From positions 62,001-126,000 of the IMG/VR virus record IMGVR_UViG_3300043446_004500: a stretch of 64,000 nucleotides of DNA, one strand, 5' to 3'. Of the stretch, positions 6,876-64,000 are shown piece after piece. Below the pieces are notes generated by a model, which was given only the letters and a program-made list of their open reading frames with translations, was not told the DNA's origin and did not search any database. The stretch comes from a virus. A program made the translations under genes and the position numbers. Positions within the stretch are counted from its first letter, which is position 1, and every line of letters starts with the position of its first letter.

Positions 6876-7674
6876 TTTAACTTTTCTTATTCCAATTAGA
6901 ATTGAGACTGAAGATAGACTAAGAAACGTCATATCTTCAGTTTCTTATTTGCTTAAAAATATTCCAGCAAAGGTACTAGTTAAAGAGGTATCAAATCATC
7001 CTACTTTCCAATTTAGAGCAATTCCAGAAATTAAAAAGCACATAGATACGTCAAATCTTGAATATCTTTATGAAGAATCTCAAGAACCTCTTTTTTGTAA
7101 AAGCAAAGTTTTGAATGATTTGATTGTTACATCATCTACCAAAGTTGTTGCAAACTATGATGCTGACTGTATTCTCCCAATTAGTTCATATCACCAGGCA
7201 TATAATGCAATCAATGATGATCAGGTAGACTTAGTGTATCCTTATGGTTGTGGGATTTATCAATGGAGAGCAGAATATAATTCGGAGATTTATGAAAAGT
7301 TTATTAAATCTTTAGACATTTCTATTTTAGATCAAAACAAATCTCTTTCTAATTCTACGATTGGGTGGACTCAATTTGTGAATAGAAAAAAATATATTGA
7401 GTCTTATATGATGAATGAAAACTTTATTTCTTGGGGATGTGAAGATGATGAATTTTATTATCGCATGAGTATGCTTGGAAATCGTATTGGAAGAATTGAT
7501 AATTATGTTTATCATTTAGAACATTCAAGAACTCATAACTCTTGGTTTAGTAATCCAAAATTTAATAGTAACTATCATCTTTGGAATCAAATTAAAACAT
7601 TTGACAGAAATAAACTGATAAGATATTATGAAAGTCAGGACTATGTAAAAAATCGCAGAAGTCAAATACAATGA
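6868..7674 (+). CDS. GT-A glycosyltransferase with galactosyltransferase-type C-terminus
   Basis: A 268-residue protein. The N-terminus LTFLIPIRIETEDRLRNV starts like a GT2-type domain, ANYDADCILP near residue 92 supplies the DxD, and NENFISWGCEDDEFYYRMSMLG followed by YHLEHSR is the Glyco_transf_7C (galactosyltransferase C-terminal) pattern in which the acidic WGxEDxE motif binds the acceptor. It sits between the two GT11 genes. Donor sugar is not determinable. Confidence 0.7.
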   Translation: MYNLTFLIPIRIETEDRLRNVISSVSYLLKNIPAKVLVKEVSNHPTFQFRAIPEIKKHIDTSNLEYLYEESQEPLFCKSKVLNDLIVTSSTKVVANYDADCILPISSYHQAYNAINDDQVDLVYPYGCGIYQWRAEYNSEIYEKFIKSLDISILDQNKSLSNSTIGWTQFVNRKKYIESYMMNENFISWGCEDDEFYYRMSMLGNRIGRIDNYVYHLEHSRTHNSWFSNPKFNSNYHLWNQIKTFDRNKLIRYYESQDYVKNRRSQIQ

Positions 7675-13737: not shown

Positions 13738-14439
13738 ATGCAAATAGATCTTCATAACTTTTTTAGATATTATGATGAAAAGAATCCCAAACACGTTGCG
13801 GCAGTAGAGCAACTTGAAAAGGATTTGCTCTTGAAAGCACAAGGTCTGATGCAAGATGATGCAAATTGGGTAAGAATCTATAGAACAAAACCAGAAGCAC
13901 CAAAATCAAATATTCTTGCGGTTCCATTTTACCCACAAACAGACAACTACAGGGATGCAAATAGAACCTGCAATTCTTCTTCCTGTGCAATGTGCCTTGA
14001 GTATTTTAAACCAGGAACTTTAAAAGGAGCAAAAGGCGATGATGCCTATGTTCAAAAAGTTTTTGCAATTGGTGACTCAACTGATCACTTGGTTCAAACC
14101 CGTGTGCTGGCGTCTTATGATGTTCAGTCATCTTTTAGTTACAGCCTCTCTTTTGATGATCTTGATAATGAGTTATCCAACAATAGACCTGTTGTCATTG
14201 GTATTTTACATAGGGGTCCTATATCTGCTCCTACTGGTGGGCACATGATTGTAGTTATTGGCAAAACTCCAGCAGGAGATTATGTTGTAAATGATCCTTA
14301 TGGTTCTTTAAATGATGGATATACTGGTGCGGTAATTAATGGTAAAGGTGTAATATACAAGAAATCTGAACTAGTTCGTAGATGGACTCCAGATGGTCCT
14401 AAATCTGGTTGGGGAAGAATTTTCCGAACAAAAAAGTAG
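13738..14439 (+). CDS. C39-like cysteine peptidase domain protein (0-frame of a putative frameshift fusion)
   Basis: A 233-residue protein. VPFYPQTDNYRDANRTCNSSSCAM near residues 61-84 and GGHMIVVIGKT near residue 170, followed by YVVNDPYG, give the Cys, His and Asp of the Peptidase_C39_2 (papain-like) fold. Such domains in phages may cut peptide cross-links or tails. No signal peptide is visible. The gene ends in ACA AAA AAG TAG: the slippery A-AAA-AAG lies right at the stop, and a -1 shift continues into the lysozyme frame, giving a product of about 393 residues. Confidence 0.75.
   Translation: MQIDLHNFFRYYDEKNPKHVAAVEQLEKDLLLKAQGLMQDDANWVRIYRTKPEAPKSNILAVPFYPQTDNYRDANRTCNSSSCAMCLEYFKPGTLKGAKGDDAYVQKVFAIGDSTDHLVQTRVLASYDVQSSFSYSLSFDDLDNELSNNRPVVIGILHRGPISAPTGGHMIVVIGKTPAGDYVVNDPYGSLNDGYTGAVINGKGVIYKKSELVRRWTPDGPKSGWGRIFRTKK
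14411..14436 (+). other. Putative -1 ribosomal frameshift site (SD-like stimulator plus A-AAA-AAG)
   Basis: The heptamer A-AAA-AAG (14430-14436) sits in register in the peptidase frame, directly before its TAG. GGGGAAGA at 14411-14418 lies about 11 nt upstream, like the AGGGAG stimulator before the same heptamer in E. coli dnaX. A 9-bp inverted repeat (ATCCCTCAA 14460-14468 / TTGAGGGAT 14494-14502) lies downstream, farther than usual. Shifting -1 gives GTA GAA TCA, the lysozyme frame. Confidence 0.6.
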
Positions 14440-14918
14440 AATCAACATTGCAAGGCAGTATCCCTCAATGTGGTGTTGATTTAATCAAACAATTTGAGGG
14501 ATGTCACTTGAATGCTTATCCTGATCCTTTAACTGGAGGATTGCCTATTACAATAGGGTGGGGAAGCACTAAAGATTTTGATGGATCTTTCTTTAAGATG
14601 GGAAGAAAAATAACACAACAGTATGCAGATAAACTGTTAATTTATAGTTTAAAAGTAAGATTTATTCCTTTATTAGAAAAAATACCTTATTGGAATGAAA
14701 TGAATGAAAATCAACAAGGAGCACTTATTTCTTTTGCTTATAATCTTGGTGCTAGTTTTTACGGGTCTCCCAATTTTAATAGTATAAGTAAAGTTCTTAA
14801 ATATAAGCAATGGAATAAAGTTCCTGATACTTTGTATCTTTATAGGAATCCTGGAAGTAAAGTTGAAGAAGGATTGATGAAAAGAAGAAAAACTGAGGGA
14901 CAACTTTGGATGAATTAA
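14437..14918 (+). CDS. GH24 phage lysozyme domain (-1 frame of the fusion)
   Basis: About 160 residues. LIKQFEGCHLNAYPDPLTGGLPITIGWGST holds the GH24 catalytic pattern E-8-D-5-T, and ALISFAYNLG and MKRRKTEGQLW match the C-terminal half of lambdoid and T4-type lysozymes. The enzyme cuts peptidoglycan between MurNAc and GlcNAc. No ATG opens this frame; the only early starts are TTG codons at 14409 and 14445 without a ribosome site. The frame begins at GTA 14436/14437 after a -1 shift, so it is probably made as the C-terminal part of a peptidase-lysozyme endolysin. Confidence 0.85.
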
Positions 14919-61959: not shown

Positions 61960-64000
61960 ATGAGTTATAACGTAACAGTAGGATATACTCCTTCTCTCAA
62001 AGTTTCAAGAGAAGCAGCTGGTTTGCAAGGAACTCAGGGAACAACCGGTTCTCAAGGAATTGGTGGTTATATTGGTGCTGATGGATCTCAAGGAACTCAA
62101 GGAACTCAAGGGACTCAAGGGACCACAGGATCTCAAGGGGCTCAAGGATCTCAAGGAACTCAAGGAACCACAGGATCTCAAGGAACACAAGGAACCACAG
62201 GATCTCAAGGAACACAAGGAACCACAGGATCTCAAGGAACTCAGGGGACCACAGGATCTCAAGGAACTCAAGGGACTCAAGGAACACAAGGAACCACAGG
62301 ATCTCAAGGAACACAAGGAACCACAGGATCTCAAGGAACACAAGGAACCACAGGATCTCAAGGAACACAAGGAACCACAGGATCTCAAGGAACACAAGGA
62401 ACCACAGGATCTCAAGGAACTCAGGGGACCACAGGATCTCAAGGTATTCAAGGAACCACAGGAACCACAGGATCTCAAGGTATTCAAGGAACCACAGGAA
62501 CCACAGGATCTCAAGGTATTCAAGGAACCACAGGAACCACAGGATCTCAAGGTATTCAAGGAACCACAGGATCTCAAGGTATTCAAGGAACCACAGGATC
62601 TCAAGGTATTCAAGGAACCACAGGAACCACAGGAACCACAGGATCTCAAGGTGCTACGGGTTCTCAAGGTTCAACAGGTTCTCAAGGAACACAAGGTATT
62701 TACGGTCCAGTAGCAGGTTCTGCTAATCAAGTTGTTTACAAGGATGGATCTAATAATCCAGCTGGATCTGGTAATTTAACATTTGATGGAACTAATCTTT
62801 ATGTTGCAGGAAACATAACAGTTGGTGGAACATCTTCATATATTATATCTAATCAACTTAATGTTGCAGATAAAGATATAGTAGTTGGATACACTACTAA
62901 TGCTTTTGGTGTTGATGTTTCTACAGATACAACTGCAAATACTGGTGGTATTGCAGTTGCTTCTACCATAGGAACTCCACTAGTTAGCTTTAACTCTGGA
63001 GGAGAAATTACTCCAGATACTTATAAGCAACTAATGTGGTTTAAGGCTGGTACTTTTACTGGATTAAACACGGATGCCTGGGCATTCAACTATGCTCTTG
63101 GTATTGGAACTTTACAAATTCCAAATGGAGTAAGACTTGCTGTAGGTGGAATGCAAGTTACTGATTCAACAGTAAGCACTCCACAATTGAGTATTTCTGG
63201 TCTTTCTACTTTTGGAAATACCATTAAACTTAATGCTGGAATACTTGATTTTTATAGTAATGTAGGCACTGCAGGATCAATTTTAATTTCTACTGGTGCT
63301 GGAGTTTCTTGGACAACTCCTTATGCTGCCGGATTACAAGGTGTTCAAGGTACACAAGGTCTTCAGGGAACTCAAGGTACTCAAGGTTCAACAGGTTCTC
63401 AAGGAGCCACTGGAACTCAAGGTGCTACAGGTTCTCAAGGTGCTACAGGTTCTCAAGGAACTTTAGGTTCTCAAGGAGCCACTGGAACTCAAGGTGCTAC
63501 AGGTTCTCAGGGTGCTACAGGTTCTCAAGGAACTTTAGGTTCTCAAGGAGCCACTGGAACTCAAGGTGCTACAGGTTCTCAAGGAACTTTAGGTTCTCAA
63601 GGAGCCACTGGAACTCAAGGTGCTACAGGTTCTCAAGGTGCTACAGGTTCTCAAGGAACTTTAGGTTCTCAAGGAACTTTAGGTTCTCAAGGAACTTTAG
63701 GTTCTCAAGGAGCCACTGGATCTCAGGGTTCAACAGGTTCTCAAGGTTCAACAGGTGCTCAAGGAGCCACTGGATCTCAAGGTTCAACAGGTTCTCAAGG
63801 AACTTTAGGTTCTCAAGGAGCCACTGGATCTCAGGGTTCAACAGGTTCTCAAGGTTCAACAGGTGCTCAAGGAGCCACTGGATCTCAAGGTTCAACAGGT
63901 TCTCAAGGAACTTTAGGTTCTCAAGGAACTTTAGGTTCTCAGGGTTCAACAGGTTCTCAAGGAACCACTGGAACTCAAGGTACTCAAGGAACTCAAGGTA
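61960..64000 (+). CDS. Collagen-like tail fibre protein (3' partial)
   Basis: From ATG 61960 the frame stays open to the window end (680 codons). After an N-terminal anchor of about 20 residues come Gly-X-Y repeats of the GTQGTTGSQG kind (about 21-248), a globular part of about 210 residues (LTFDGTNLYVAGNITVGGTSS, ADKDIVVGYTTNAFGVDVSTD, WFKAGTFTGLNTDAWAFNYALGIGT) and a second Gly-X-Y block from about residue 459. Collagen-like fibres form stiff trimers. Pro is almost absent; Thr, Gln and Ser fill X and Y. Confidence 0.88.
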   Translation, partial: MSYNVTVGYTPSLKVSREAAGLQGTQGTTGSQGIGGYIGADGSQGTQGTQGTQGTTGSQGAQGSQGTQGTTGSQGTQGTTGSQGTQGTTGSQGTQGTTGSQGTQGTQGTQGTTGSQGTQGTTGSQGTQGTTGSQGTQGTTGSQGTQGTTGSQGTQGTTGSQGIQGTTGTTGSQGIQGTTGTTGSQGIQGTTGTTGSQGIQGTTGSQGIQGTTGSQGIQGTTGTTGTTGSQGATGSQGSTGSQGTQGIYGPVAGSANQVVYKDGSNNPAGSGNLTFDGTNLYVAGNITVGGTSSYIISNQLNVADKDIVVGYTTNAFGVDVSTDTTANTGGIAVASTIGTPLVSFNSGGEITPDTYKQLMWFKAGTFTGLNTDAWAFNYALGIGTLQIPNGVRLAVGGMQVTDSTVSTPQLSISGLSTFGNTIKLNAGILDFYSNVGTAGSILISTGAGVSWTTPYAAGLQGVQGTQGLQGTQGTQGSTGSQGATGTQGATGSQGATGSQGTLGSQGATGTQGATGSQGATGSQGTLGSQGATGTQGATGSQGTLGSQGATGTQGATGSQGATGSQGTLGSQGTLGSQGTLGSQGATGSQGSTGSQGSTGAQGATGSQGSTGSQGTLGSQGATGSQGSTGSQGSTGAQGATGSQGSTGSQGTLGSQGTLGSQGSTGSQGTTGTQGTQGTQG
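62086..62664 (+). repeat. Tandem repeat block 1 of the collagen-like gene
   Basis: Units built from GGATCTCAAGGAACACAA plus GGAACCACA (27 bp) and shorter 9- or 18-bp variants, in near-perfect copies at the DNA level. The open frames on the other strand and in other phases are by-products of this repeat. Confidence 0.9.
63337..64000 (+). repeat. Tandem repeat block 2 of the collagen-like gene
   Basis: Units of GGTTCTCAAGGAGCCACT, GGTGCTACAGGTTCTCAA and GGAACTTTAGGTTCTCAA in shuffled order; a longer segment recurs several times. Different sequence from block 1, so the two were amplified separately. Continues past the window. Confidence 0.88.

Follow-up and report, generated by a model that had tools for sequence, protein, structure and literature searches.

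A putative programmed -1 frameshift cassette linking peptidase and lysozyme domains in cyanophage endolysin genes

Introduction

A stretch of 64,000 nucleotides (nt) of viral DNA, positions 62,001 to 126,000 of the 153,677-base IMG/VR record IMGVR_UViG_3300043446_004500 and hereafter called the window, carries an endolysin gene whose C39-like peptidase and GH24 lysozyme domains lie in different reading frames. The two frames are very probably connected by a programmed -1 ribosomal frameshift cassette, which would give products of 233 and 393 amino acids (aa) from a single gene. The cassette is made of a slippery heptamer, A-AAA-AAG, a stop codon that usually abuts it and a predicted stem-loop with compensatory changes, and it recurs in numerous relatives, some of which carry a different domain downstream. 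A frameshift had been put forward in an initial annotation of the window, and that interpretation is supported by the comparison reported here.

Results

Two frames meeting at a slippery heptamer

The features of the locus are collected in Table 1. The 3' end of the peptidase gene reads AGA ATT TTC CGA ACA AAA AAG TAG, and the heptamer therein is in the register for -1 slippage and touches the stop, as the initial annotation had noticed and as is seen again in relatives. From 14430, the -1 frame stays open as far as a TAA at 14916-14918 and leads into the lysozyme, which has neither an ATG upstream of its catalytic Glu nor a ribosome site of its own; the predicted shifted product counts 231 + 162 = 393 aa, so that frame arithmetic returns both product sizes first proposed, and the same layout is present in relatives. 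At E values up to 0.001, the peptidase matched only Peptidase_C39_2 and, more weakly, Peptidase_C70 among Pfam families, and the extension only Phage_lysozyme. Residues Cys78, His169 and Asp186 of the peptidase are invariant across six aligned homologs, and Glu23, Asp32 and Thr41 of the lysozyme fragment across seven aligned sequences; both triads are taken by us to be the catalytic residues. By these domain matches and conserved candidate active-site residues, the gene is a phage endolysin with C39-like peptidase and GH24 lysozyme domains, for which a wall-cutting activity is predicted.

Table 1. Features of the endolysin locus, in positions of the window (bp, base pairs; ORF, open reading frame)
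Feature	Position	Strand	Basis
C39-like peptidase, 0-frame product of 233 aa	13738..14439 (stop included)	+	ORF; Peptidase_C39_2 PF13529 E=1.1e-12
N-terminal module, ~50 residues, end approximate	13738..13890	+	recurs before separate lysozymes in relatives; no Pfam family at curated cut-off
GGGGAAGA, Shine-Dalgarno-like, 11 nt before heptamer	14411..14418	+	sequence; stimulator role unproven
Slippery heptamer A-AAA-AAG, 0-frame register (X_XXY_YYZ type)	14430..14436	+	sequence; 36/36 comparable relatives
-1 frame extension: linker and GH24 lysozyme domain, 162 codons and TAA	14430..14918	+	Phage_lysozyme PF00959 E=2e-20
0-frame stop TAG, abutting heptamer	14437..14439	+	sequence
Predicted stem-loop stimulator: 14 bp, 3-nt bulge, 3 bp, 7-nt loop	14439..14482	+	62-nt fold -16.3 kcal/mol, z -3.1; covariation in relatives

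Conservation of the heptamer among relatives

Relatives were collected from IMG/VR by a protein search that did not select for the heptamer, with six aligned peptidases as query, and the best 80 of at least 532 confirmed relatives were analyzed (loci are denoted by L and a number); these were ranked by likeness to the window peptidase, including its Lys-Lys end, and are for that reason not a random sample. In 36 of the 80 loci, the lysozyme is in the -1 frame and no ATG or GTG overlaps, and every one of these 36 has A-AAA-AAG in phase, either directly before the stop or one codon away, while six other loci combine the heptamer with an overlapping ATG or GTG. A second IMG/VR search, made with a divergent peptidase and likewise not selecting for the heptamer, gave 71 loci on contigs partly shared with the first. 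Here, all 30 loci that have a -1-frame domain at most 100 nt from the stop, with neither ATG nor GTG overlapping, possess the heptamer, and the eight loci with the domain 182-671 nt away all lack it. Among isolates, S-PM2 has the heptamer followed by TAA both in AJ630128 and in LN828717 (a spontaneous deletion mutant), two records that agree at 2000 of 2000 compared bases and were not necessarily sequenced independently. When the junction is compared among related cyanophages, as had been suggested from the start, the heptamer is thus kept in the comparable loci and in a cultured phage.

A scan for the heptamer pattern was added, as a lower bound on such loci, and together with fetched phage records it gave 234 loci and 146 representatives, 85 of them with the heptamer; because the scan selects for the heptamer, its loci serve the stem and codon statistics and not prevalence. 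Loci without peptidase were removed (39 of 206), L049, L252, L272 and L275 have no stop inside the locus and stand outside the junction counts, and L108 is a frame-disrupted peptidase, not a fusion. The heptamer representatives comprise class A, without an overlapping start (77 representatives), and class B, in which the heptamer is followed by one codon and then by an ATG, GTG or TTG overlapping the stop (the eight representatives L003, from S-SRM01, L016, L046, L057, L071, L075, L139 and L236). Class A is spread over 18 GH24 and 3 GH19 leaders at 80% peptidase identity. Class B keeps the heptamer despite the overlapping start and without a significant stem.

Codons of the slip site and the stop

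Codon choice indicates that the slip site is conserved beyond the protein sequence: the final Lys-Lys is encoded by AAA-AAG, preceded by A, in 36 of 36 loci picked by architecture alone. At other positions of the peptidase genes, counted over the 146 representatives, AAA-AAG is used in 16 of 123 Lys-Lys pairs. Among the 85 representatives with the heptamer, codons adjoining the slip site do vary synonymously, and the A run has six A in the 36 comparable loci, except in L026, where it has seven. In 72 of these 85, the stop and the heptamer touch, and 65 of the 72 stops are TAG. Over the whole of class A, TAG is used in 67 of 77, versus 3 of 53 homologs that are neither fused nor provided with a heptamer.

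Such a strong preference for TAG is what readthrough of this codon might leave behind. The 0 frame past the TAG stops again after 14 codons, short of the lysozyme, which refutes readthrough as a route to it and leaves this explanation with a vanishingly small probability. Since TAG, TAA and TGA would alike yield Val in the -1 frame, the preference may otherwise reflect slow termination, or merely an effect of the following -1 codon. As to the decoding tRNA, one Cyanobium metagenome-assembled genome, a possibly incomplete stand-in for the true host, gave 39 tRNA hits with one tRNA-Lys (TTT) and none with CTT, and none of the 11 tRNA hits on the window's record is a tRNA-Lys. In E. coli, A_AAA_AAG is among the most shift-prone sequences and a single tRNA-Lys reads both codons (PMC5009743, Atkins et al.).

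A covarying stem-loop after the heptamer

The comparison supports a stimulator that the initial annotation had overlooked, a covarying stem-loop downstream of the heptamer. Folds of 50 nt starting 3 nt past the heptamer have a mean z of -2.84 in the 85 representatives, versus -0.42 to 0.27 at four control positions. In 45-nt folds, the mean z is -3.04 for class A (n=77, 55 below -2), and it is -0.41 for class B (n=8, none below -2), -0.36 for loci of the ATGA type without heptamer (n=16, 3 below -2) and -0.36 for the other non-heptamer homologs (n=45, 5 below -2). Most heptamer loci that have no overlapping start thus show the stem, and it is missing from those that combine a start with the heptamer. 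In 66-nt folds, a helix of at least 8 bp starting within 12 nt is found in 70 of the 77 representatives without an overlapping ATG or GTG, with a median of 13 bp over all 77.

The two arms match each other within each locus, pairing at a mean of -16.7 kcal/mol as against -9.3 for swapped arms, and none of 2000 permutations came as low as -16.7. The 3' arm falls within the first part of the lysozyme domain. It occupies one of two main registers that differ by a codon (27 and 26 representatives), and pairing in these amounts to 90% and 83%, versus 32-50% and 36-46% when slid, percentages that are favoured because the registers were chosen by best pairing. Double changes affect 6 and 8 pairs (13 and 25 cells), compared with at most 4 and 8 pairs (at most 6 and 14 cells) in slid registers, and covarying sequence pairs number 152 versus 40 shuffled and 174 versus 42; these come from 20 and 18 distinct arm pairs, and no shuffle out of 1000 per register reached them, the shuffles ignoring relatedness. 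The 3' stem-loop of a frameshift cassette is therefore found as a predicted structure with compensatory changes in relatives.

The stimulating role had at first been ascribed, by analogy with E. coli dnaX, to the Shine-Dalgarno-like GGGGAAGA upstream of the heptamer. Its distance of 11 nt proved exact, and selection for such a role was not supported. In the heptamer representatives, the distance from the end of TGGGG, inside TGGGGAAGA, to the heptamer is 15 nt in 74 of 85 and 18 nt in the other 11, and the predicted pairing with the anti-Shine-Dalgarno sequence averages -6.1 kcal/mol with the heptamer versus -6.7 without it (53 of 61 measurable). Because GGGGAAGA codes for a conserved peptidase Trp-Gly-Arg and is no weaker in homologs that lack the heptamer, selection for a stimulating role cannot be asserted; the motif may contribute to slippage.

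Other routes to the second domain

Transcriptional slippage, in which the RNA polymerase would insert an A on the run of six and normal translation would then yield the fusion, is very unlikely. Slippage by the polymerase is independent of codon phase and would need none, whereas in the 36 comparable loci the run keeps the ribosomal phase A-AAA-AAG, with its final G and its nearly constant length; besides, the stem with compensatory changes follows right after the run, and it is found in none of the eight representatives where a start overlaps. This explanation would have an identical protein outcome, the isolate S-CAM7 offers a run of 8 T to a slipping polymerase, and the process is known in Thermus thermophilus dnaX (PMC5009743).

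The lysozyme could also be made as a separate protein, through termination and reinitiation or from a weak internal start. This is the likely situation in the 12 of the 80 loci that have an overlapping ATG and no heptamer, and in class B, S-SRM01 included. For the window and class A it is very unlikely: of the 73 GH24 representatives in class A, 41 have a -1 frame devoid of ATG, GTG and TTG up to the catalytic Glu, which rejects an independent start for them, and the rejection is less firm for the other 32, of which five have an ATG. In the window, the lysozyme frame has TTG codons at 14409 (the mechanical ORF start, inside the peptidase gene) and at 14448, with no AGGAGG-like site in the 20 nt 5' of either. 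A separate lysozyme would, moreover, leave the stem and the fixed heptamer unexplained.

The initial annotation had also considered that a lost A, by mutation or sequencing error, would give the same picture. Relatives with a seven-A run and one continuous frame, the case that it had named as speaking against a frameshift, do exist: L052 and L066, the two in-frame fusions among the 80 loci, keep the stem, and L066 (L146 is the same contig) falls in a starred group of the peptidase tree with L070 and L079 of class A. They are a minority that may represent recent variants or errors, the 36 comparable loci all keeping the heptamer. For the family, an error in a single genome is rejected by conservation across divergent contigs and by S-PM2, whose heptamer and stop stand in two records. 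With both frames intact and the stem kept as well, error or recent inactivating loss is an extremely unlikely origin of the junction.

Exchanged domains and altered slip sites

Four loci, L137, L169, L230 and L134 (truncated where its contig ends), have this heptamer and stop followed, in the -1 frame, by a different, GH19-like domain. This domain has a weak GH19 match in L137 (Pfam E=2.2e-5, 0.7 bits below the cut-off); that of L169 has no Pfam match at 0.001 and resembles stretches annotated as endolysin in several cyanophages. A hairpin follows the stop in all four loci (45-nt z -3.9 to -6.2). In both records of S-CAM7, the slip site is replaced by GTT TTT TTT CCA CAG TAG, that is, U-UUU-UUU in register, with stems of z -4.2 and -4.8 and a -1 lysozyme frame of 174 codons that has no ATG, GTG or TTG before the catalytic Glu.

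In the case of ACG-2014f, the five records (L006 and L404-L407, the latter four alike in the junction stretch compared) have the fusion in one frame and yet keep A-AAA-AAG in register. Their -1 frame reaches a stop one codon later (KKV*). Next comes a hairpin, with -9.9 kcal/mol in L006 and -13.4 in L404 (z -2.2 and -2.8 over 30 nt, -1.4 and -2.3 over 45 nt). The same reversed layout is seen in L218 and L277 (KKV*, KKA*), which have a long-range stem in the 62-nt fold (-15.1) and none in shorter windows (z 0.4 to 1.1). These loci are suggestive of a polarity opposite to that of class A and like that of E. coli dnaX. An AlphaFold2 model of the L218 in-frame fusion, built on a 5-row alignment, was poor (predicted local distance difference test, pLDDT, 61.6; predicted template modelling score, pTM, 0.39), and no fold search was based on it. 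L251 is an in-frame fusion without heptamer. The junction of S-N03, ME01, S-B68, S-CREM2, B23 and PSS2 was not placed by motif, and these phages were counted neither way; no in-register A or T slip site was seen in the stretch viewed of the fused isolates S-N03, ME01 and S-B68, where the motif did not locate the junction.

A FastTree phylogeny of 144 peptidases, with the junction excluded, requires at least 41 changes among nine architecture states (shuffled mean 66). If class A, class B, the loci of reversed polarity and S-CAM7 are scored together as having a frameshift signal, its presence versus absence requires 31 changes on the same tree, in which 56 of 141 inner branches are weak. The region 3' of the peptidase seems to have been exchanged often. 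A reverse domain order, lysozyme and then peptidase, is found in S-CREM1 (L005, 589-1770), annotated as one ORF, and also in L045, L051, L056, L062 and L064, in one frame and close together.

Evidence to be set against a frameshift

Several observations weigh against the proposed frameshift. The arrangement is not universal: of the 80 loci, 12 lack the heptamer and have an overlapping ATG, five have the lysozyme upstream of the peptidase, and in 19 no lysozyme was detected. Collapsed to 71 clusters, the six groups (-1 frame without start, heptamer with start, overlapping ATG, lysozyme upstream, in-frame fusion, no lysozyme detected) count 34, 5, 10, 4, 2 and 16. To these must be added the seven-A fusions and the lack of specificity of the upstream motif, and the presence of AAA AAG in 85 of 85 heptamer representatives is circular, the heptamer being the detection rule, and is not counted as evidence. 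Regarding the stem, z is at or above -2 in 22 of the 77 class A representatives, and seven of the 77, the window included, lack a first helix of 8 bp in the 66-nt fold, where a second hairpin wins in the window at -18.3 kcal/mol. Helix length separates the classes less well than energy does, because an 8-bp helix is also found (66-nt fold) in 4 of the 8 representatives with heptamer and overlapping ATG or GTG and after the stop in 21 of 61 non-heptamer homologs. S-PM2 has a z of -3.5 in the 62-nt fold and of only -0.4 in the 45-nt fold, the latter being weak because the arms lie further apart. As for covariation, the second register slid by one base still gives 8 double-change pairs, with 14 cells versus 25, and the neglect of relatedness in the shuffles counts on the same side.

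The 64 kb also hold 50 copies of AAAAAAG on both strands, six of them followed by a stop, and among 83 long frames scanned there are five slippery heptamers near the ends, 14430 included, from which the -1 frame would run on for over 150 nt. The window on its own is unconvincing, since AAAAAAG is not rare there and four other heptamers lead into such extensions, and conviction rests on conservation in relatives. Those four, at 7647, 26075, 28353 and 34439, are probably chance gene overlaps.

Neighbouring genes and the N-terminal module

The window carries psbA and further genes of cyanophage type, and the endolysin gene lies between a presumed peroxiredoxin-like ORF (before) and psbA (after), the names being taken in part from the annotation of relatives. 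An N-terminal module similar in its ~50 residues fronts cyanophage C39 peptidases (the window; L001, 1941-2078), and modules of like size precede separate GH24 and GH19-like enzymes (second genes of L038 and L269). This module is possibly a wall- or envelope-targeting part.

Discussion

The most plausible pathway would start with the translation of the C39-like peptidase up to A-AAA-AAG, where tRNA-Lys would re-pair one base upstream, aided by the stem-loop that starts a few bases on and perhaps also by slow decoding of the UAG that comes next. Termination at this UAG would release the 233-aa peptidase from ribosomes that stay in frame, and those that slip would produce the 393-aa peptidase-lysozyme. 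Read from sequence and its conservation, such slippage, its efficiency, any role of UAG or of GGGGAAGA and the action of both products in host lysis are predictions.

The closest parallel is E. coli dnaX (tau/gamma), where A-AAA-AAG, a downstream stem-loop and an upstream Shine-Dalgarno-like motif give a short and a long protein from one gene. The present gene is dnaX-like in its working and, by its Pfam matches, not a dnaX homolog. It also differs in that the long form of class A needs the shift, in that the stop abuts the heptamer and in that selection on the Shine-Dalgarno-like motif is unproven; some bacterial dnaX genes do have the form in which the long product arises by the shift (PMC5009743). 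The phage tail assembly chaperones (lambda gpG/gpGT and kin) likewise gain a C-terminal extension by a -1 shift near the end of an ORF, and A-AAA-AAG serves in some of these frameshifts (PMC3483164). Unlike these tail genes, the cyanophage cassette joins two predicted wall-cutting domains, and neither the domains nor the neighbours, a peroxiredoxin-like ORF and psbA, are those of a tail assembly chaperone.

Among lysis genes, the Lactococcus vML3 lysin is said to be made as two products from overlapping genes, and neither a conserved cassette of heptamer and stem nor an exchange of domains is known to us in that case. The vML3 paper is the first reference given where PRFect counts lysins among frameshift-containing genes (PMC10885494), and the case is described as a larger lysin homologous to lysozymes and a smaller holin-like lysis protein (PMC3111421). 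Mycobacteriophage Ms6 LysA also has two endolysin forms from one gene, and differs in that they come from an embedded in-frame second gene, a frameshift at GTGA being merely suggested (PMC3111421). Putative frameshifts in genes that lie close to predicted endolysins have been reported for a Streptomyces phage (PMC9671017). PHROG 3617 and 10051 are protein families (unknown function and endolysin) that are silent on frameshifting, and the single 405-column profile of phrog_3617 spans both peptidase and lysozyme. Among the matches listed in PMC full text, as titles and abstract openings, none reported that a cyanophage endolysin gene is frameshifted, the subscription literature lying mostly outside that collection. 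The device itself is known, and its conserved, modular use in cyanophage endolysins appears, within the reach of these searches, to be new.

More tentatively, and with rather more doubt than confidence, it could be proposed that selection keeps a ratio of free peptidase to peptidase with a second wall-cutting domain, near the half-and-half of dnaX, by means of a portable cassette. The muralytic domain would be swappable (GH24 or GH19-like), the slip site replaceable (U-UUU-UUU in S-CAM7) and the polarity reversible (ACG-2014f, L218 and L277), with both products retained throughout. If so, the cassette would be a general timing or stoichiometry device in the lysis of cyanobacteria.

Existing annotations are those expected if a frameshift goes unrecognised. 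In S-PM2, the lysozyme is annotated as a short 'putative lysin' that starts inside the domain (AJ630128, 116499-116717, and likewise in LN828717), and in S-CAM7 as a short ORF, also from inside the domain (NC_031927, 156765-157037; MT586120, 158149-158367), the labels in these phages being either short 'lysin' or hypothetical protein. If the proposed frameshift is real, conserved programmed frameshifting joins two endolysin domains, hidden in isolates already in databases, and would give gene-finding programs a definite rule by which the lysis genes of cyanophages could be corrected. The question of why a phage needs a short and a long endolysin would become directly testable in cultured phages, for which the natural variants (the GH19-like swap, U-UUU-UUU, the reversed polarity and the overlapping start that replaces the stem) would constitute a ready-made comparative experiment.

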